From the IMG/VR virus record IMGVR_UViG_3300042934_000594, positions 62,001 through 126,000 of that record: DNA of 64,000 bases; one strand, written 5' to 3'. The stretch is from a virus. Position 1 is the stretch's first letter. Each line of letters opens with the position of its first letter. The notes beneath the pieces are model-generated. The model saw only the letters and a program-made list of their open reading frames with translations. It was not told the origin of the DNA and searched no databases. The translations under genes and the position numbers were made by a program. This document shows positions 3,334 through 45,896 of this stretch, piece by piece.

Positions 3334-3479
3334 TGTAACGTCCTCTGAGGGCTCTACACGGCGTTTTAGCCGGAAGTTATACTAAGACACCGGATTATAT
3401 GCGAAACCCCTCCTGCGTGATCTTAAAGAGTTTTAAACCTAGATCATTCAGGTAGAGTAAGCGAAATGAGTACAAAACC
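3334..3479. promoter_or_regulatory. Divergent intergenic region between 3333(-) and 3480(+)
   Basis: AT-rich 146-bp gap between divergent genes, so it should hold promoters for both. A TATAAT lies on the minus strand at 3399-3394 without a convincing -35, and the plus strand carries TATATG at about 3396. I cannot assign either to a polymerase. Confidence 0.35.
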
Positions 3480-3830
3480 ATGATCCGTACCCGATACACC
3501 ACGACCTGCTGGGTGTTCGACATTGATCGGGCCATCCAGAGTCTGGGGGAGCCTCCTTTAGCCGATACCACGGAGCGGACGTACCGCGAATTCATTATCG
3601 ATGGTTTCGTTAAACATACCATCTCGCGTTTTGACTGGGTCAGTGTGCGCAATCACTACCCGGTGCACTTTAGCCACGAAGTGGTGCAGTGGTTTGAACA
3701 ACAGACCATTGCCATCCAAGAACTGTATCAAGCCGTGCGTTTTCGTCCCGAGGACGCAGGGTCTCAGGTTTTCATTCATCGCATGGCGTCAACAATCTGG
3801 GTGTTTGTCCCCCAATTGAGTTTGACCTAA
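3480..3830 (+). CDS. Small unknown protein of the 3.5-9 kb array, 116 aa
   Basis: Starts at ATG 3480 with only a weak upstream site. It begins with a short strand (CWVFDIDRAIQSL) and ends with another (IWVFVPQL), with helices between them. The same N-strand/C-strand layout recurs in the following genes, suggesting a very divergent tandem family. No known domain recognised; function unknown. Confidence 0.65.
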   Translation: MIRTRYTTTCWVFDIDRAIQSLGEPPLADTTERTYREFIIDGFVKHTISRFDWVSVRNHYPVHFSHEVVQWFEQQTIAIQELYQAVRFRPEDAGSQVFIHRMASTIWVFVPQLSLT

Positions 3831-9518: not shown

Positions 9519-11696
9519 ATGACCGCTCAAGCCCCTCAACTGACCAACCCGTTCTTGGTTCCTGTTGAACACTACGTTCGCGATCTGGACATTATCAGTG
9601 GGTACCTGGCCGATAACAGCCTCTACCTACAACTGATGACAGGTGCGCCTTACACTGAGTGTGAAGCCCTGGTCAAACAAACCGTCCGCCCTGACGGTGA
9701 GTTCGCATTCAAAAACCCTGACGCCCTGATCCTGGACAAAAACCAGTACGGTGATCGGGAACCCAAGAACACCACCTTCATGGGGTTCTTGAACCGTGTC
9801 CAAAAACAAAAGCTTTTGCTCTCGCCTTCGATGGCGGCCTATATGCCCGAAGATCAGCGTGAATCCACCCACGCGGTCTACATCAAAGAAGCCGTAGGAC
9901 GCCGTAAGGTGGCCAAGGGCGAGCAGATGGCGGCCGAACGCGCCAAGAACAAAGAGAAGGCCCTGTTCAAAAAAGGTGAACAGAACAACCTCAAGATCAA
10001 CAACAACTCCTACTCCGGCGGCACGGTGTCCACCGCCACGATCCTGTACTACAAGTCCACGCACTCCTCGTTGACCAGTTGCTGCCGTACAGCCACCTCG
10101 TACGCCAACGCCAACAACGAAAAGTTCATCATGGGCAACCGGCACTATTACAACCCGGAAGTGACCAAGGCGAACCTGCTGTTTATCTGCAACAACGTTG
10201 ACCTGATTGCCATGGCCGACTTGATGCACCACCATCAACTGCATTACCCCACGGTGGAAGAAGTGGTGGAGATGGTGCGTTACTCCACGCCTAACTATTG
10301 GACGGCTGAGGAGCACTTCAAGAAGATCGAGCGCATGGCGCGCGGTATGACGCCGATCCAGCGAGCAGCGGTGATGTACACCGGCGACTTCTACCAGCTG
10401 TCCAAGTACAACCACGATTTCGTCAAGGACTTCTTGTTTGCGTTGTCCGAGAAAGGGGACTTGTCCACTATTCCCAGCGAGGAAGAGTACAAGGGCTACG
10501 GGGACGATGTGCACTTGTTGGCTAACTTCCTGTGCTTCGAAGAAGTACGGGGTCGCGACAAAGGGCAATTGCTCAACGGTGACCCAGAGCAAGACCCGCC
10601 ACTGTTGCCTGAGCCGCAAGTCTATGACCTGGTCAAGTCCACTGCCCACCGGGCGATGACGACCCTGAACCACTACAAGGGTTTCATCCGGGTGTTCTTG
10701 ATGTCCAAGGTCATGCCGCATTCGATCCATGCCTTCCCAACGATCTACCGTAAGGCTGCGGTGATCTCTGACACTGACTCCACGATGTTCACCTTGCAGT
10801 ACTGGGTAGACAAGTACTTCGGCCGGGTGTGTTTCACCCCCGAAGCCAAGCGTGTAGTGTTCTCGATGGTGTTTCTGATCTCTGAAGTGGTGATGCACAT
10901 CCTCGCTCAGCAATCGGCAAACATGGGAGTGGCCTACGGCAAGCTGCGCCTGCTAGCCATGAAGAATGAGTACTACTTCGCGATCCTGGCCTTGACCACC
11001 CGCTCCAAGCACTACTTCGCGTCTCAGGATGCGTTGGAGGGCATCATGTTTGAGATTGCTCGACTGGAAGTCAAAGGGGTGGGGTTGCGAGACTCTAAGG
11101 TCCCGCCCGTGATCAACAAGGCCGCCAAGGAGATGTTCACCGAGATCATCACCAACATCAAGAACGAACAGCCGTTGGATATCCAGGACATCCTTCAGCG
11201 CATCGGCGACTTGGAACGCAAGATCATGGCCTCGGTGCAATCGGGTAGCTTTGAGTTCATGACCACCGGTCAAGTGAAAGCTGCCGACTCCTACAAGTCC
11301 GATGACAACGCCACGTTCAAGCAGTACGAGATGTGGAACACCGTGTTCGGTCCTTTCCTGGGGATGACCAAAGAGCCACCGTACTCGGTGGTAAAGGTTT
11401 CGTTGGGGATCGACAACAAGACGGACTTGGAAGCCTGGTGCAAGCGCATGGGTAACGACGCCTTGGCGTTCAAGCTCAAGAACTACATGGTCGACAACCG
11501 CAAGAAAGACTTCACCACACTGATGATCCCGTACACCATCGTTGAAACCGCTGGGGTACCGAAGGAAATCATTGCCGGTATTGACTTGCGTCGAATGATC
11601 TCCAACACCATGGGGACGTTCTATGTCCTGCTGGAAACCCTGGGGATCTTCCTGATCGACAAGAACAACGTCCGTCTGGTGTCCGACTACTATTAA
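9519..11696 (+). CDS. DNA polymerase family B, C-terminal half (split enzyme), 725 aa
   Basis: Residues ~159-166 read K-x-x-N-N-S-Y-S (KINNNSYSG), matching the nucleotide-binding motif B (Kx3NSxYG). SDTDST at ~417-422 matches palm motif C with its catalytic aspartates, and MKNEYYF ... KHYFAS near 475-490 resembles the template-binding KKRY region. No exonuclease motifs or motif A are present; those lie on the gene at 44100-45896. Insertions between motifs B and C (about 250 residues) are unusually large. It should act with that second subunit to replicate phage DNA inside the phage nucleus. ATG 9519 is the first start after the terminator; no strong ribosome-binding site is visible. Confidence 0.8.
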   Translation: MTAQAPQLTNPFLVPVEHYVRDLDIISGYLADNSLYLQLMTGAPYTECEALVKQTVRPDGEFAFKNPDALILDKNQYGDREPKNTTFMGFLNRVQKQKLLLSPSMAAYMPEDQRESTHAVYIKEAVGRRKVAKGEQMAAERAKNKEKALFKKGEQNNLKINNNSYSGGTVSTATILYYKSTHSSLTSCCRTATSYANANNEKFIMGNRHYYNPEVTKANLLFICNNVDLIAMADLMHHHQLHYPTVEEVVEMVRYSTPNYWTAEEHFKKIERMARGMTPIQRAAVMYTGDFYQLSKYNHDFVKDFLFALSEKGDLSTIPSEEEYKGYGDDVHLLANFLCFEEVRGRDKGQLLNGDPEQDPPLLPEPQVYDLVKSTAHRAMTTLNHYKGFIRVFLMSKVMPHSIHAFPTIYRKAAVISDTDSTMFTLQYWVDKYFGRVCFTPEAKRVVFSMVFLISEVVMHILAQQSANMGVAYGKLRLLAMKNEYYFAILALTTRSKHYFASQDALEGIMFEIARLEVKGVGLRDSKVPPVINKAAKEMFTEIITNIKNEQPLDIQDILQRIGDLERKIMASVQSGSFEFMTTGQVKAADSYKSDDNATFKQYEMWNTVFGPFLGMTKEPPYSVVKVSLGIDNKTDLEAWCKRMGNDALAFKLKNYMVDNRKKDFTTLMIPYTIVETAGVPKEIIAGIDLRRMISNTMGTFYVLLETLGIFLIDKNNVRLVSDYY

Positions 11697-39683: not shown

Positions 39684-41108
39684 ATGAACAAACGCGATTA
39701 TTTCATCAAGGCTATTAATGCCGGCGCCGGCAAGAAGCGCGCGTGGGTTAACAGCGTGTTCTCGGTGGTGGTGGGGATGGCCCCAGGGGCCAAGAACACC
39801 CGCTTCTGGTACATGACCCGGATTGTCGATGGACGGATGGAGTTCCTGGACCCGGACCACGACATGATCGTGCACGCCGACCCCAACCTGGGTGGGGCTG
39901 GTCCCGAGCAACCCGCCTGGACACCGATCGATGACTTCACCCCAGGGCAGGCGTTGTTCCAGTGGAAAGAAGAGCTGGTGTTACAAGTCGGTGAGATTGC
40001 CAACTACGCAGGTTCCGGTGCACTGATCACCACCTACGGTAACGTCTTCGTCAACTACATGATCCTGGTCTTACCATTCGGTACCACGCTGCCGTACATG
40101 GAAGGCTACATCAGCCTTAAAGCCATCGAAGCGCAGATCATCGACCGCATGATCGATGACCCCATAGAAGACCCTGAGATGGCAGGCTTCGGTGAGTTCC
40201 GACTGCGTACGCTGCCACCTGAACGATACCCCAAAGCGCCTGACGGCAAGATCTATGTACGTCAGTACCTGCACTTCTGTGACAATGCCCTGTCGCTGAT
40301 GGCCTACGCCACCAGCATTGTCTCCTCGGCTTCTAAGAAGTCGATGGTACCCCACCCCGACCGCACTAAGGTGCGTGATGCTGAAGTGGGTAAGTACACC
40401 CCTGAAGAACTCAAGGACCCGGCCATCGTTGCTCGTATCGGCAACGTCATGGAAGACCTGGACCGCGAGCACATGAAGGGTGATCCGGCGGAGCAGTTCT
40501 ACAAGTCCAACGACTCCAAGTTCTTCGGCGGTACCCGCAAGCGCATGTTCTATATGTTCGGCGGCGAGTCACCGTTTGAAGACGGCACCTCCGTGGACTT
40601 TATCCAAAAGTCGTTGGAAGAAGGCATCGACCCGGATTACATGGCGGCGATGAACAACTCCACCCGCTTCGGTTCGTATAACCGTGGTGCGCAGACCAAG
40701 CTTGGGGGTGAGTCGACCAAGACTATCTACCGGATGCTGGGTACCGTGCGCATCGCAGAGCCCGACTGCGGCGTCAAACTCGGTGTGCCCACCCTGGTCA
40801 CCAAAGCGTCCACCAAATCCATCGTCGGCTTTACCATTGTCGATGGCGAGGCCCAGGTCTTGCTCACCCCTGAGAACGTAGGCAGCTACGTCGGGCGGTT
40901 TGTCAACCTGCGGGGCCCGGGTGTCTGCAAGTCCCCTGGCAAGAACCCCTGCGGGGTCTGCGCTGGTCGTGCACTCAGTGAACAGCCCAACGGCTTGGCT
41001 GCCGCTGCTGCTGGTCTGGGGGGTCGCTTCCTGACCCTGTTCTTGAAGAAGATGCACGCCTCCGCACTCAAGACCGCACGCTGGGATTGGAAACGTCTGC
41101 TGAAGTAA
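39684..41108 (+). CDS. Virion RNA polymerase beta' subunit, C-terminal half (phiKZ gp80-like), 474 aa
   Basis: FGSYNRGAQTKLGGESTK near residue 335 resembles the beta' bridge-helix/trigger-loop block (usual HGARKG). CKSPGKNPCGVCAGR near 420 is a zinc site, and GLGGRFLTLFLKKMHASAL corresponds to the IGEPGTQLT region with its following M-x-T/H. So this is a second beta' C-half, distinct from the one at 31982. phiKZ packages a separate virion RNAP whose gp80 subunit maps just after this point in gene order. The packaged enzyme transcribes early genes after injection. ATG 39684 follows GAAGG. Confidence 0.8.
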   Translation: MNKRDYFIKAINAGAGKKRAWVNSVFSVVVGMAPGAKNTRFWYMTRIVDGRMEFLDPDHDMIVHADPNLGGAGPEQPAWTPIDDFTPGQALFQWKEELVLQVGEIANYAGSGALITTYGNVFVNYMILVLPFGTTLPYMEGYISLKAIEAQIIDRMIDDPIEDPEMAGFGEFRLRTLPPERYPKAPDGKIYVRQYLHFCDNALSLMAYATSIVSSASKKSMVPHPDRTKVRDAEVGKYTPEELKDPAIVARIGNVMEDLDREHMKGDPAEQFYKSNDSKFFGGTRKRMFYMFGGESPFEDGTSVDFIQKSLEEGIDPDYMAAMNNSTRFGSYNRGAQTKLGGESTKTIYRMLGTVRIAEPDCGVKLGVPTLVTKASTKSIVGFTIVDGEAQVLLTPENVGSYVGRFVNLRGPGVCKSPGKNPCGVCAGRALSEQPNGLAAAAAGLGGRFLTLFLKKMHASALKTARWDWKRLLK

Positions 41109-41159
41109 TACCCCGTACCTCAATGCTTTACACGCAAGCCACCTAAGGAGTCCATCTAA

Positions 41160-42515
41160 ATGGCCACCCCAGAAGAACAGAAAGCTGCCGTAGAACAACT
41201 GCTGGACAATCCAACTGGCGCCTCGGCGGCCACTGAAGTCCCTACCCCGGCTGACGGTGTCGCCACCCCCTCCCCAGTGGTTGCTGCCATCGCTGAAGCC
41301 AATGCCAAGGCCCTGGAGCAAGCCGGCGCTCAATCGGCCCCTGCTGAAGAAGCCCCCGCTACTGACGAAGCCGCACCTGCTGCCGACGACACTCCAGCCC
41401 CGGCTGCTGAAGAAGTCAAGGACGTTGACCTGGCCAAGCAAGCCCGCACCCAGTTTGAAGTACCGGCCGCCTGGTCCGATGAGCAAGTCCTGGCCTGGGT
41501 CAACCAACAGACGGTTGATCAACCGGTGAAGAACGCTGATGGCGTCTTCTACCTGGACCCAACCCGCGCCAGTCGCGCTGTGCCTGAGTGGAGTACCCCA
41601 GAACTGCTGGCATTCCTTAAGGGCGAACTCAAGGACGTCACCGACAAGCTCAATGGCCCGGTGGTCAACGAGTTCCGCAAACGTGAAGACGTGCCACAGG
41701 CCTGGTCGGTCAAGGAAGTCATCGCGTTTTACGGTCAAGGCATCGAGCCTGAGAAAACCCGTAACGGGGTGTGGAAGAACGACGTGACCCGCGCTGAGCG
41801 TCAAGCGTCCGACTGGTCCACTGAAGAACTGCACGCCTGGGCATTCGGTGAAATCCGTGCGTTGGGTAAAACCAACGACGCCAAAGCGGCCAGCGAACTC
41901 AAATCGCGCGTGAAGCTCACCAGCGAGAACAACAGCCCGGACGCGGTGCGTGCCGCTTACACCAAGCAGCAAACGCAACAAGAAGCCGCTGCGGCCAGCC
42001 AGGCCGAAGCCACCTCGCGTCAAGCACCAGAACCGGCTCCTGCTCAAGCAGCGCCTGCCCCCAAACCCCTCGACACCGTAGAAGGCCTGACCCCGATGAA
42101 CGTGTCTTTCATTGACAGCAGCCTGGCGCGCTACGAAGCCGCCGTCAAACCCGGCAGTTCGGTTGACGAAGCCGCCGCCTTGCGTGCACAGAACAACCTG
42201 GAAAACCTGTTCCAGTACATCATCGCTCTGGAACCGTCGGCCCTGGTGCCTGCTCTCAAGCGCCTGCTGGACTACTTCAGCACGCACCAAGAGAAAGGTC
42301 AGGTGTTCCATGCTGACAACGTGTACCGCTTCACGCACCTGATGCGCACCGAGCGCAAGTACCGTGAGCGTCACATCAACTTCCTCGAAGTGCTGCGCGC
42401 CTACTCGGCCCCGAACAAAGACCTGCGCAAGCAAGTCGATGTCCGCACCCTGGTACGCGACCAACAGCCTGACCGCGTCGAAATGCTGGTGGAGTTCTTC
42501 CAGAAGCACGCCTGA
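41160..42515 (+). CDS. Virion-type protein with duplicated W-S repeat, 451 aa
   Basis: ATG 41160 behind AAGGAG. Residues 1-90 are A/P/E-rich and disordered. Residues ~103-235 contain a tandem duplication of a ~76-residue unit: W-S at 105 and 182 (AWSDEQVLAW, AWSVKEVIAF) and at 144 and 219 (WSTPELLAF, WSTEELHAW), with D-x-TRA-x-R between them in both copies. After a Q/A/P-rich linker comes a helical C-terminal domain (~315-451). No catalytic motif. Next to the virion RNAP gene, so perhaps packaged; function unknown. Confidence 0.6.
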   Translation: MATPEEQKAAVEQLLDNPTGASAATEVPTPADGVATPSPVVAAIAEANAKALEQAGAQSAPAEEAPATDEAAPAADDTPAPAAEEVKDVDLAKQARTQFEVPAAWSDEQVLAWVNQQTVDQPVKNADGVFYLDPTRASRAVPEWSTPELLAFLKGELKDVTDKLNGPVVNEFRKREDVPQAWSVKEVIAFYGQGIEPEKTRNGVWKNDVTRAERQASDWSTEELHAWAFGEIRALGKTNDAKAASELKSRVKLTSENNSPDAVRAAYTKQQTQQEAAAASQAEATSRQAPEPAPAQAAPAPKPLDTVEGLTPMNVSFIDSSLARYEAAVKPGSSVDEAAALRAQNNLENLFQYIIALEPSALVPALKRLLDYFSTHQEKGQVFHADNVYRFTHLMRTERKYRERHINFLEVLRAYSAPNKDLRKQVDVRTLVRDQQPDRVEMLVEFFQKHA

Positions 42516-42522
42516 TGGCACG

Positions 42523-42548
42523 CCCCTCCTGCGGGAGGGGCTTTATGC
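42523..42548 (+). terminator. Hairpin followed by TATG
   Basis: GCCCCTCC (42523-42530), loop TGCGG, GGAGGGGC (42535-42542), then TTTATGCCG. TATG lies ~50 nt upstream of the next start at 42597, so it could also serve as a promoter element. Confidence 0.65.
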
Positions 42549-42596
42549 CGTATTCTCTGTAGGGTTAAGCTTTTAATGAGGGAAAGAGGGTTAACT

Positions 42597-43352
42597 ATGT
42601 TTGAAGCACTTGCAGGAGTGGGCCAGGGGGTGAGTTACACACTGCCCGCGGACCTAGGACCTGGTCCGACGACTTTGATCGCCGGGGACGCCACGGAAGG
42701 TTACTTTGGTACGCTGACAGCGGCTGAGTTCATCAATGGTACGGCACTGGCCACCGCGATCGGGTTAACCGCAGGGGGCGTCATCAGCTCGCAAGTTAAC
42801 TCTGACTGGCAGAAATTTATTTGGCAGGGCAAGATTTTGTACATGCCCATGCAAGGGTTCCGTAACACCGTTACCTGGAATCAGTTGTACGCCCGTGGGG
42901 CGATCTACGGAGACGATACCAACGGTGCTTACCCGGCAGCCACGCCTGTGGCCCAGAGTGCCCGCGCCACGGTAGGCAATCGAACCTTCCGCGTCCGCGT
43001 CCCTAAAACCGCCATCGGTAACTCGGTGCCATTGGAAGTGGGCAGCGGCAGCGGCACCTCCGGGCGGGTGGACAACCACGTAACCTTCAAAGGCTCGGAA
43101 TGGAACCAGTTGATGTACCGCAGTACGTCAGGCATCGAGACGTATCAGGCGCGGGAGGACTGGGCTGCTTACACAGGCAGTCAATTGTCAGCCGGTTGGA
43201 CCATCATGCAGGAGAGTTCCAGTCAAAACACAGGAGGGTGCGTCATGCGTTCGTACCCAGGGTTTGGCATGGGTTCGGGTCTGTGCGTCTCTAAAGGCTT
43301 GTCCGCCGCCTCGGTAACGTGGAAACCGGTGTTGGAGCTGATTCAGCCTTAA
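42597..43352 (+). CDS. Third fibre-like paralogue, 251 aa
   Basis: ATG 42597 is preferred (GAGGGT upstream); ATG 42576 lacks a site. It shares the module of the genes at 1031 and 1770: GYFGTL, ATAIGLTAGG, WQKFIWQG, FKGSEWNQLM, and the ending W-K-P-V-L-E-L. It lacks the MTD-N-like start and instead begins with a short glycine/proline-rich segment. Probably a virion surface protein related to the two fibre-like proteins ~40 kb away. Confidence 0.6.
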   Translation: MFEALAGVGQGVSYTLPADLGPGPTTLIAGDATEGYFGTLTAAEFINGTALATAIGLTAGGVISSQVNSDWQKFIWQGKILYMPMQGFRNTVTWNQLYARGAIYGDDTNGAYPAATPVAQSARATVGNRTFRVRVPKTAIGNSVPLEVGSGSGTSGRVDNHVTFKGSEWNQLMYRSTSGIETYQAREDWAAYTGSQLSAGWTIMQESSSQNTGGCVMRSYPGFGMGSGLCVSKGLSAASVTWKPVLELIQP

Positions 43353-43390: not shown

Positions 43391-43810
43391 TCAGCCGCGG
43401 TACGCGATGTTGCCAATGTAGTCCAGGTTGTACTTGGCGCCGTACGCCATGGCCATCGCATAGATGGATTCGTATTCACCCGGGGTCAAGTGCAGGTTTC
43501 CTTCCCGGTAGACGTGCATGGCGTAGTAACACACCTTTTCCATCTTCTTGGTCATCTCCGTATGGACCAGGGGTAGGGTGGTGTGGAAGGGGTTAAAGTG
43601 CACCCCGTTGAGCTGGGTTTTGGTGTGTGGGTGATGGGACAGCATCTCCACCACCGCCATCAGGTCCACCAGTTCATTGGCCAGGTGCATGTACGCCGGA
43701 CTGTTCTGGTACTGCGACATCAGCCCAAAGGACTGTGACTTTAAAGCTTCTTTAGCGACCTCGACCGATTCCTCGGCGATCTTACTCAGCAGGTATTGTT
43801 GCCAGTTCAT
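43391..43810 (-). CDS. MazG-like nucleotide pyrophosphohydrolase, 139 aa
   Basis: KIAEESVEVAKEAL (E13, E14, E17) and HLANELVDLMAVVEML (E46, D49) form the EExxE ... ExxD magnesium-binding signature of the all-alpha MazG/dUTPase-like fold, ~29 residues apart as expected. Such enzymes hydrolyse (d)NTPs or, in some phages, alarmone-type nucleotides. Start ATG 43810 overlaps the preceding stop as ATGA, with CGGAG upstream. Substrate not deducible. Confidence 0.65.
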   Translation of the reverse strand: MNWQQYLLSKIAEESVEVAKEALKSQSFGLMSQYQNSPAYMHLANELVDLMAVVEMLSHHPHTKTQLNGVHFNPFHTTLPLVHTEMTKKMEKVCYYAMHVYREGNLHLTPGEYESIYAMAMAYGAKYNLDYIGNIAYRG

Positions 43811-44061
43811 GCTGCACTCCGTTCGTTAAGGATCTCGGCCAGGGCCCGGGCCTGAGTAATGGGGGTGGTGCCAAACATATCGGAGAGCACGCCGTCGTGC
43901 TCACAGGCGTGCTCTTCCAGTTCTTCCATGAGCGTTGGATTGAGCACCGCCCATTGTTGCCACAAGGCCTTGTACTCGCCCCAGAGGTCGGTATTGGGCT
44001 TAAGTGGGGGTTTGCCCTTCCCTAAGCGCCAATCCCGCCCACCGGGCTGGTAGCCCTTCAC
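43807..44061 (-). CDS. Small conserved phage protein with no visible start (annotated from GTG 44061)
   Basis: From GTG 44061 the product would be 84 aa (KGYQPGGRDWRLGKGKPP ...). The frame upstream is clearly coding: ECSTKGDRRFSALFCRL then SDGRTIEEHYQCDV, a pattern I know from small phage proteins of unknown function that normally begin at that point. This extra part (up to ~44150 or beyond) has no ATG, GTG or TTG in frame and overlaps the end of the DNA polymerase N-half in its -1 frame. The frame is open up to ~44265, past an A AAA AAG heptamer at 44205-44199. So it may be a frameshift product, use a rare start, or reflect a 1-nt deletion after ATG 44153. Confidence 0.6.
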   Translation of the reverse strand: MKGYQPGGRDWRLGKGKPPLKPNTDLWGEYKALWQQWAVLNPTLMEELEEHACEHDGVLSDMFGTTPITQARALAEILNERSAA

Positions 44062-44099
44062 ATCACACTGGTAGTGCTCCTCAATGGTGCGTCCGTCAC

Positions 44100-45896
44100 T
44101 TAAGCGGCAGAAGAGGGCGCTAAAGCGGCGGTCGCCTTTGGTAGAGCATTCATATCCACCAAATCGTTGATGTCGAAAGGGGGAGCCAAGGCGGGTCCCT
44201 TTTTTGCCAGGTGGTCTTCCATCATACCCAGCATTTGATCCAGTGTCGGTGCCCCCAAGATCTTCTGGCAGATCTCCACGGCGTTGGTCTTACCGCCCGT
44301 GAGGTTCACCCCGACCTCACGCCGGTGTTCTTCACTGATCCCCCGCATGCGACAGAACTCCATCACACAGGTTTCCCGTGCGATGTTCAACAGCTGCGAG
44401 ACGTTGGGGTACGTCGAAACGATGTCCAAGTCCGCTACGTGGGTGTAGATCAAGGTGTGATAGTTGGGGTAACCCCCCACACACTTCAAGCCGTTAGGGG
44501 CGGCCATGTACGAGGGTAACGTCACGATCCAGTCATGATGACCGATCACGTGCTCATCCACCTCCTCCACCATCCGGTCAGACGAACTGCCCATGACGCA
44601 GGGTTCTGGACGGTTCAGGTACCAGAAGTGCATGTCGTCACACAGACGCTTAGGGTTAGAGTTAAAGTTCTTGTAGTCGCTGTTCTTGGAATACATCGTG
44701 ATCGACGAAGCCAAATCGTTGGTCTTCTCGTCCAGCATCTCAAGCGTCATACTGTCGAAGATGTTGTAGACCCCGTAGCGAATCTTGTGCTTCTCCTGCA
44801 TGACTTCGTGCCAACGCAGTCCGGTCAAGTGATCGGTTTCAGCAAACTTCAACTTTGTGATCTTGAGTTCCTTCTTCAAGATCGAGTCCAGCGAGTATGA
44901 CGGTTCCTTACCGTTGGCCAGACGGGTGTTACGGTACACCGGCATCAAGTCGATGCACTGGAACGTGGCAGGGTGTGTCAGCCAGTGCCAACGGTCTTCC
45001 ACGTTGATCGACATGGTTTTGCCTGAGGCGGTGACTTTCTGCGTGTTGCCCCGCTTGAAATCAAAGTAGCGGTAGTTCGGTGGGATGCTCGGGTCGCTGA
45101 ACACGTCCTTGGGGTCAATGCCTTCACGTTGCAGCGCGGTGATGATTTTGGAAATGTCGAAGTCGATGTTCCAGAAGCCGAAGAACTCAGGCTTCCATTC
45201 ATGCAACTTGTTTAGGCAACCGATGACCACTTGGGCTGGGGTGTCGACCACGTGCACTTCGATCTTGCACTCGCGCTTTTTGAGTACGTCGCCGATGAAC
45301 TCCTCCGCACAGCGCAGGGTTTCCCCTTCCACGTCCTCAATGTCACTGACCCAGGACTTGAGGTAGTAGATCACCGCGTTCTTTTTATGGGTGACCGACA
45401 TGCAAATGATCTCTTGATCCTTGCTGTGCACGTTGGTCTCGATATCGCCACCGGCCACTCGGTTTAACGTCACCAAGTCAGGCCACTTATTGCGGTAGTC
45501 CGACTTAAGGTAACAGGTACTGGTCACGTCAGTGCCGTAGATGTACGGACTGCGACAGACTTGCTTTAAACCAAAGGCGGAATAATTGCCCGTGGCTTTC
45601 GCCAAGGCCTTCGGTAACTCTAACTGGGTGCACTGAAACTTCTGCAAGTTGCGTGCGTATTCGTAGTCTTTCTTCTCGCGGTGGTTTTGCATCCCCTTGT
45701 GGGTGATCCAATACGGGCGTTTGTAATCGGGGAACTTTTGCAGGACGGGGATCTTCCGGCCGTCTTTAAGGTGGACAATGACCTTGGCCACCAGCAGGTC
45801 GTGGTTCCCTTGCTTTTGGTCCACGACATAAGTGATGTGCTTGCACTCGTAACCCAGCACATCTTCCTTCTTATAACTGATATCGACTTCGCTCAT
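44100..45896 (-). CDS. DNA polymerase family B, N-terminal half (exonuclease plus palm motif A), 598 aa
   Basis: GGDIETNV (D151, E153) is Exo I, FWNIDFDIS (N243, D247) Exo II, and YNIFD (Y377, D381) Exo III of the 3'-5' proofreading domain. HVADLDIVSTYPN (D491) near the end is palm motif A (DxxSLYPS). Motifs B and C are absent and lie on the separate gene at 9519. So the enzyme is cut between motif A and motif B. ATG 45896 follows CAGGTG. The last ~45 residues are flexible and end A-L-A-P-S-S-A-A; this tail overlaps an alternative -1 frame. It would form the active polymerase only together with the 9519 product. Confidence 0.82.
   Translation of the reverse strand: MSEVDISYKKEDVLGYECKHITYVVDQKQGNHDLLVAKVIVHLKDGRKIPVLQKFPDYKRPYWITHKGMQNHREKKDYEYARNLQKFQCTQLELPKALAKATGNYSAFGLKQVCRSPYIYGTDVTSTCYLKSDYRNKWPDLVTLNRVAGGDIETNVHSKDQEIICMSVTHKKNAVIYYLKSWVSDIEDVEGETLRCAEEFIGDVLKKRECKIEVHVVDTPAQVVIGCLNKLHEWKPEFFGFWNIDFDISKIITALQREGIDPKDVFSDPSIPPNYRYFDFKRGNTQKVTASGKTMSINVEDRWHWLTHPATFQCIDLMPVYRNTRLANGKEPSYSLDSILKKELKITKLKFAETDHLTGLRWHEVMQEKHKIRYGVYNIFDSMTLEMLDEKTNDLASSITMYSKNSDYKNFNSNPKRLCDDMHFWYLNRPEPCVMGSSSDRMVEEVDEHVIGHHDWIVTLPSYMAAPNGLKCVGGYPNYHTLIYTHVADLDIVSTYPNVSQLLNIARETCVMEFCRMRGISEEHRREVGVNLTGGKTNAVEICQKILGAPTLDQMLGMMEDHLAKKGPALAPPFDINDLVDMNALPKATAALAPSSAA
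44199..44205 (-). other. Classical -1 slippery heptamer A AAA AAG
   Basis: In the polymerase frame the codons are GCA AAA AAG GGA, giving X XXY YYZ in exactly the phase needed for -1 slippage, as in dnaX. The -1 frame runs on, without a stop, into the 43807 gene. Confidence 0.55.

Follow-up and report, generated by a model that had tools for sequence, protein, structure and literature searches.

In dnaX of Escherichia coli, the gene for the gamma and tau proteins of the DNA polymerase III clamp loader, a -1 ribosomal shift at A AAA AAG yields two products with a common N-terminal part from a single replication gene, and the locus described here appears to be alike in these respects. A Shine-Dalgarno-like element is located 10 nt upstream in dnaX and resembles the GGAAG found at our locus. 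Among phages, phiKZ is a model nucleus-forming phage. Its family B DNA polymerase is split into gp82 and gp50, and both have homologues (phrog_3011 and phrog_2927, respectively) in the window, as we call the whole stretch of 64,000 nucleotides of viral DNA analyzed here. The literature that we found on the split polymerase of phiKZ-like phages does not mention an extension by recoding. Along similar lines, a full-text search (most subscription papers fell outside it) returned no report of frameshifting for phiKZ-like polymerases; an earlier report is not excluded. In an antisense knockdown screen of phiKZ, both polymerase halves were hits, and knockdown of the gp82 mRNA impaired the phage (PMC12571901), a result that does not separate the two N-half forms proposed below.

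Split polymerase and genomic context

The window comes from a virus record of 269,430 bases, and the phages closest to it are phiKZ-like jumbo phages of Pseudomonas. Its polymerase belongs to the split family B type of these phages, with an N-terminal half containing the exonuclease/motif A region and a separately encoded C-terminal half (Table 1). The latter carries the polymerase motif B and C signatures (NNNSYSGG and SDTDS) and corresponds to the phiKZ DNA polymerase gene at 40599-42770. The match of the N-half to phrog_3011 (E value of 7e-228) covers residues 8 to 562, and thus, the conserved part of the polymerase stops just before the slip site. A scan of GTDB genomes with the polymerase returned no relatives.

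The N-half gene is interrupted in several relatives (L006, L022, L069, and L031); in HPP-Temi, the interruption is by an HNH endonuclease. Long insertions near motif A were found in the N-half genes of PhiPA3 and L069, and in Goslar, a NUMOD1/HNH gene is located behind the N-half gene. Given these interruptions in several relatives, the gene is a repeated target of mobile elements.

Table 1. Features of the polymerase junction and of the two polymerase halves in the window
Feature	Position	Strand	Remarks
N-terminal half of the split family B DNA polymerase (zero frame, 598 aa)	44100..45896	-	Match to phrog_3011
GGAAG, Shine-Dalgarno-like, 10 nt upstream of the heptamer	44216..44220	-	Possible stimulator
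Slippery heptamer A AAA AAG in the polymerase phase (GCA AAA AAG)	44199..44205	-	Same or equivalent heptamer at 19/19 -1-frame junctions
Zero-frame tail past the slip site, GPALAPPFDINDLVDMNALPKATAALAPSSAA	44100..44198	-	Outside the conserved polymerase family
-1-frame continuation, 11-residue linker plus phrog_9995 domain	43807..44199	-	Open frame, family match
Small conserved domain (RFGGYECSTKGDRRFS...)	43807..44166	-	Predicted compact fold, pLDDT 97
9-bp hairpin UUUGGUGGA/UCUACCAAA, 35 nt downstream of the heptamer	44137..44163	-	Partly kept in relatives
GTG, the start that gene finders would take	44059..44061	-	Inside the conserved domain
C-terminal half of the same polymerase	9519..11696	+	phrog_2927 (E value of 6e-270)

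Slip site and reading frames in the window

The small protein encoded downstream of the polymerase N-half belongs to phrog_9995 (E value of 9e-47), and its frame is -1 relative to that of the polymerase. This frame is open upstream as far as a stop at about 44292, and the open stretch, which holds ...GTRLGSPFRHQRFGGYECSTKGDRRFS, contains no ATG, GTG, or TTG. The sole open reading frame for the small protein that begins with one of these codons runs from GTG 44061 and has 84 aa. Since this GTG falls inside the conserved domain, it is probably not the true start. The initial annotation had described the same layout, i.e., a -1 frame, no start above GTG 44061, and an in-phase A AAA AAG at 44205-44199, and had held that the protein family extends upstream of this GTG. 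The description was accurate, and the phrog_9995 alignment does reach upstream of the GTG.

The slippery heptamer is in phase with the upstream gene, and the -1 frame is open from the slip site through the conserved domain, giving a predicted slip product of 566 + 130 = 696 aa (length by arithmetic). In the 50 long open reading frames of the window (~18,700 codons), in-phase V VVA AAG occurs at only two sites, one of which is the slip site, and the arrangement is more than would be expected by chance.

Conservation of the heptamer among relatives

Junctions were read in public phages and in IMG/VR contigs, which provided 19 distinct junctions with the small frame at -1, the window included. 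They come from related phages and are not independent samples. An in-phase X XXY YYZ heptamer was present at the point where the -1 frame takes over in 19 out of 19. Twelve have C CCA AAG (phiKZ, PA7, PhiPA3, Phabio, 201phi2-1, PS119XW, HPP-Temi, Viktualia, L010, L012, L052, and L122), six have A AAA AAG (the window, Noxifer, L001, L004, L005, and L007), and one has G GGA AAG (L003). These are exactly the three motifs that, together with a stimulator, were most efficient when all 64 heptamers were assayed systematically in E. coli (PMC4066793). As the shared motif, the 19 junctions use only these three heptamers, and pattern scans for further junctions recovered known records only.

We defined the permissible zone as the stretch between the polymerase stop and the last stop in the -1 frame before it. 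This zone spans only four codons in eight genomes, with the heptamer inside (a chance of about 0.8% each), while the background of in-phase heptamers elsewhere in these polymerase genes is 7 per 3348 codons (0.21%). Further heptamers, attributable to chance, occur within or beside this zone in the window and two contigs. Where the heptamer is C CCA AAG, the polymerase stop comes directly after it in most relatives and otherwise one codon later. The codon preceding CCA AAG can be AAC, CCC, GCC, TCC, GTC, or CTC, so that its third base is always C across six amino acids, compared with 24% of codons with a third-position C elsewhere in these genes. This constancy of the third base, whatever the amino acid, indicates selection on nucleotides. 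Together with the 0.21% background, it places the conservation of the slip site beyond what amino acid constraint requires. Mapped on the polymerase tree, the heptamer is found throughout the clade; the types with A AAA AAG are near the stop readthrough types described below, and the C CCA AAG types and the +1/-2 clade are nested in the rest. The placement of L003, L069, and L083 is uncertain (long branches).

The split polymerase, the frames, the missing start, and the conservation of the slip site across the clade are all read directly from the sequences. Comparison of the heptamer among homologues, which the initial annotation had proposed as a check, was positive, and its reading of the locus as a programmed -1 frameshift is supported by the relatives. 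We consider programmed -1 ribosomal frameshifting at this junction very probable; in this phiKZ-like phage and in all close relatives examined, the conserved slippery sequence should lead some ribosomes to slip one base back.

Start codons and alternative explanations

From the last in-frame stop to the conserved domain, 13 of the 19 -1-frame junctions lack any ATG, GTG, or TTG, and the start codons of Noxifer are located only deep inside the polymerase gene. There is an ATG near the beginning of the domain in PhiPA3 and L122 and a GTG in PS119XW, 201phi2-1, and Viktualia, so initiation could contribute in these five phages. The likeliest of the alternatives, improbable as we judge it, is a separate gene with a non-AUG start, at which translation would begin immediately behind the polymerase stop through reinitiation or translational coupling. 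The overlap of stop and ATG in PhiPA3 and L122 (TAATG; TAATA in phiKZ) would fit, as would the nearby GTG of PS119XW, 201phi2-1, Viktualia, D6, and RVTF4 and the TTG of Psa21. However, other relatives have ACA, ACT, GTA, GTT, CTG, ACG, or no start at the equivalent place, and reinitiation is impossible in the phages with A AAA AAG, whose polymerase stop can be up to 64 nt past the start of the domain. A separate gene would also leave unexplained the invariant in-phase heptamer and its third-base C.

Two other explanations seem very unlikely to us. Transcriptional slippage on a run of six A's would produce mRNAs with joined frames, and AAAAAAG does provide such a run in the window and five relatives, but six A's make only a short run, and CCCAAAG or GGGAAAG, without more than three A's in a row, is found at 13 of the 19 junctions. 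For the phages with these two motifs, transcriptional slippage was rejected. The downstream frame might instead be the decaying, untranslated remnant of a gene that was once free-standing, as the lack of a start codon in most members could suggest. Decay is hard to reconcile with a domain that across the clade is 50 to 62% identical to that of the window over its length, with 23 invariant columns and an open frame in all members, that gives a confident single-domain structure model (pLDDT of 97), and that is accompanied by conserved heptamers. Finally, a sequencing or assembly error, the alternative raised in the initial annotation, in which the loss of one base after 44151 would have separated the true ATG from its gene (at 44153, ATG AATGC, one added base would join the frames), is ruled out as a general explanation, because many phages that were sequenced independently of one another (phiKZ, Noxifer, PS119XW, HPP-Temi, and metagenome contigs) show the same start-less -1 layout.

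Possible stimulators

With regard to the elements that might stimulate a programmed -1 frameshift, both the GGAAG and the downstream GC-rich pairing that had been pointed out initially are present in the window (z = -2.2 for the pairing), but neither is consistently conserved in relatives. Upstream, anti-Shine-Dalgarno pairing was not consistently strong (mean rank, 0.40); the element is strong in L005, PhiPA3, 201phi2-1, Viktualia, PS119XW, and HPP-Temi and absent in phiKZ. Downstream, the z values of the RNA fold ranged from -4.0 to +0.7 among junctions, with values of about -4 in Phabio, 201phi2-1, and L004 and, as in the window, -2.2 in phiKZ; the RNA was not unusually stable in L001, L003, L012, and PhiPA3. 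At the RxGGYECS codons, a hairpin had 68% of cells paired, more than in shuffles, with few changes on both sides. Whereas the window, PhiPA3, and L010 have it in a strong form, it is disrupted in several members, among them L001, L005, and L007. No single downstream RNA structure was common to all relatives, and an Rfam search around the slip site gave no match.

The small domain

Relatives of the domain also exist free-standing in unrelated phages (e.g., L017, L024, and L034), mostly with an ordinary start a few residues before the conserved block, which is an ordinary ATG in these three. Split polymerases that are more distant (phiEaH2, Moabite, BONAISHI, DT01, and many contigs) have no such domain downstream. 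In distant split polymerases (L137-L141, L146, L158, and L163), a run of 7 to 10 A's often starts within a few bases past the stop (e.g., TAA AGCAAAAAAAAA).

Gene finders mis-annotate the extra small domain as a separate, truncated gene. Thus, in the public record of phiKZ, PHIKZ082.1 is annotated with 38 residues (NC_004629.1, 80128-80244), and in that of Noxifer, gp82 is annotated with 99 residues (NC_041994.1, 73805-74104). The recoded C-terminal domain of phiKZ seems to have been missed, with only fragments in the public records examined.

Searches of the PDB with the domain, by sequence and by fold, gave no match. The domain of the window had no Pfam match either, and the NADAR and DUF4326-DUF488 group appeared only as isolated weak Pfam hits. 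In a viral fold search, NADAR and DUF4326 proteins recurred as weak matches (E values of about 0.5 to 5; TM scores of up to 0.63). A NADAR identity of the domain was not supported by profile comparison (hhalign probability of 0.2 to 0.3% versus NADAR). Two other phage contigs (L037 and L041) encode a fusion of the small domain with a YspA-type SLOG domain, and in L037, DUF4326 is part of it as well. These fusions are a hint at NAD or nucleotide chemistry, and a role of the domain related to ADP-ribose or nucleotides is a lead only.

Other proposed recoding modes at the junction

Psa21, D6, RVTF4, and a number of contigs, nine related phages in all, group together on the polymerase tree (support of 100/99) as a clade sister to those above; its junctions are those of L015, L019, L021, L033, L036, L040, L043, L044, and L046. 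Here, the small frame is +1 (equivalent to -2), without a heptamer, and GAA AAG AAG is found in the polymerase frame at the junction in all nine members. At the equivalent start position, the codon varies (GTG, TTG, CTG, ACG, or none). A -2 slip of lysyl-tRNA from AAG to AAA would be sufficient, and some members could instead initiate at their GTG or TTG; a -2/+1 shift in this clade is likely but unproven.

Two distinct contigs, L069 (found again as L071) and L083, encode the domain in the polymerase frame, behind a TAG. These junctions read TAG CTA or TAG CTG and have no start codon (L069, at about 3492-3513; L083, at about 3477-3495). Reassignment of TAG was considered unlikely, as no TAG occurs in the flanking open reading frames of L083 (454 and 882 codons). 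Given this absence from its other long open reading frames, TAG is probably a true stop, which suggests stop readthrough as the simplest reading of these junctions.

Proposed mechanism and comparison with known systems

Under programmed -1 frameshifting, the majority of ribosomes would read the polymerase N-half through to its own stop. In a minority, the two lysyl-tRNAs on AAA AAG would re-pair one base upstream, on AAA AAA, and the slipped ribosomes would continue in the -1 frame, producing an N-half of 696 residues that ends in the phrog_9995 domain. As with gamma and tau of dnaX, there would then be two forms of the split polymerase, only one of which carries the extra domain. Both N-half forms should assemble with the C-half, and the domain may be an accessory part of the phage replisome that is needed on only some polymerase molecules. 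The occurrence of the slip, its frequency, and the role of the domain are inferred; nothing behind the frameshift conclusion has been bench-tested, and there are no peptide, ribosome-profiling, or reporter data.

Across these phages, it seems to be the fusion that is conserved and not the mechanism. Tentatively, and without placing it above even chances, we propose that what is maintained is a minority form of the polymerase with the extra domain, reached by three kinds of recoding, i.e., a -1 shift (at three heptamers), a -2 (or +1) shift at GAA AAG AAG, and UAG readthrough, and that the targets of the domain may be nucleotides or modified DNA at the replication fork. Since related phages would switch between recoding modes, they offer a natural experiment in the evolution of recoding signals. 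A phage replicative DNA polymerase would join the genes expressed by programmed frameshifting, which suggests two polymerase forms in one infected cell, and the fusion is directly testable in phiKZ.

The resemblance to dnaX has its limits: there, the shift yields the short product, whereas the shifted product of the window would be the longer one, and the gene is half of a phage family B polymerase, for which no universal downstream hairpin was found. The frameshifts of IS3/IS911 transposases use the same V VVA AAG class of heptamer and likewise join two domains of a DNA enzyme, although the genes are unrelated and those of IS3/IS911 have a defined downstream stem-loop or pseudoknot. The tail assembly chaperones of lambda (G/GT) and Mu differ from the locus in the window in that they are not replication enzymes, and one clade of the polymerases may use stop readthrough. 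They are alike in being a phage gene pair with a conserved recoding position, in which the lineage switches between -1 and -2 shifts while the fusion is kept.
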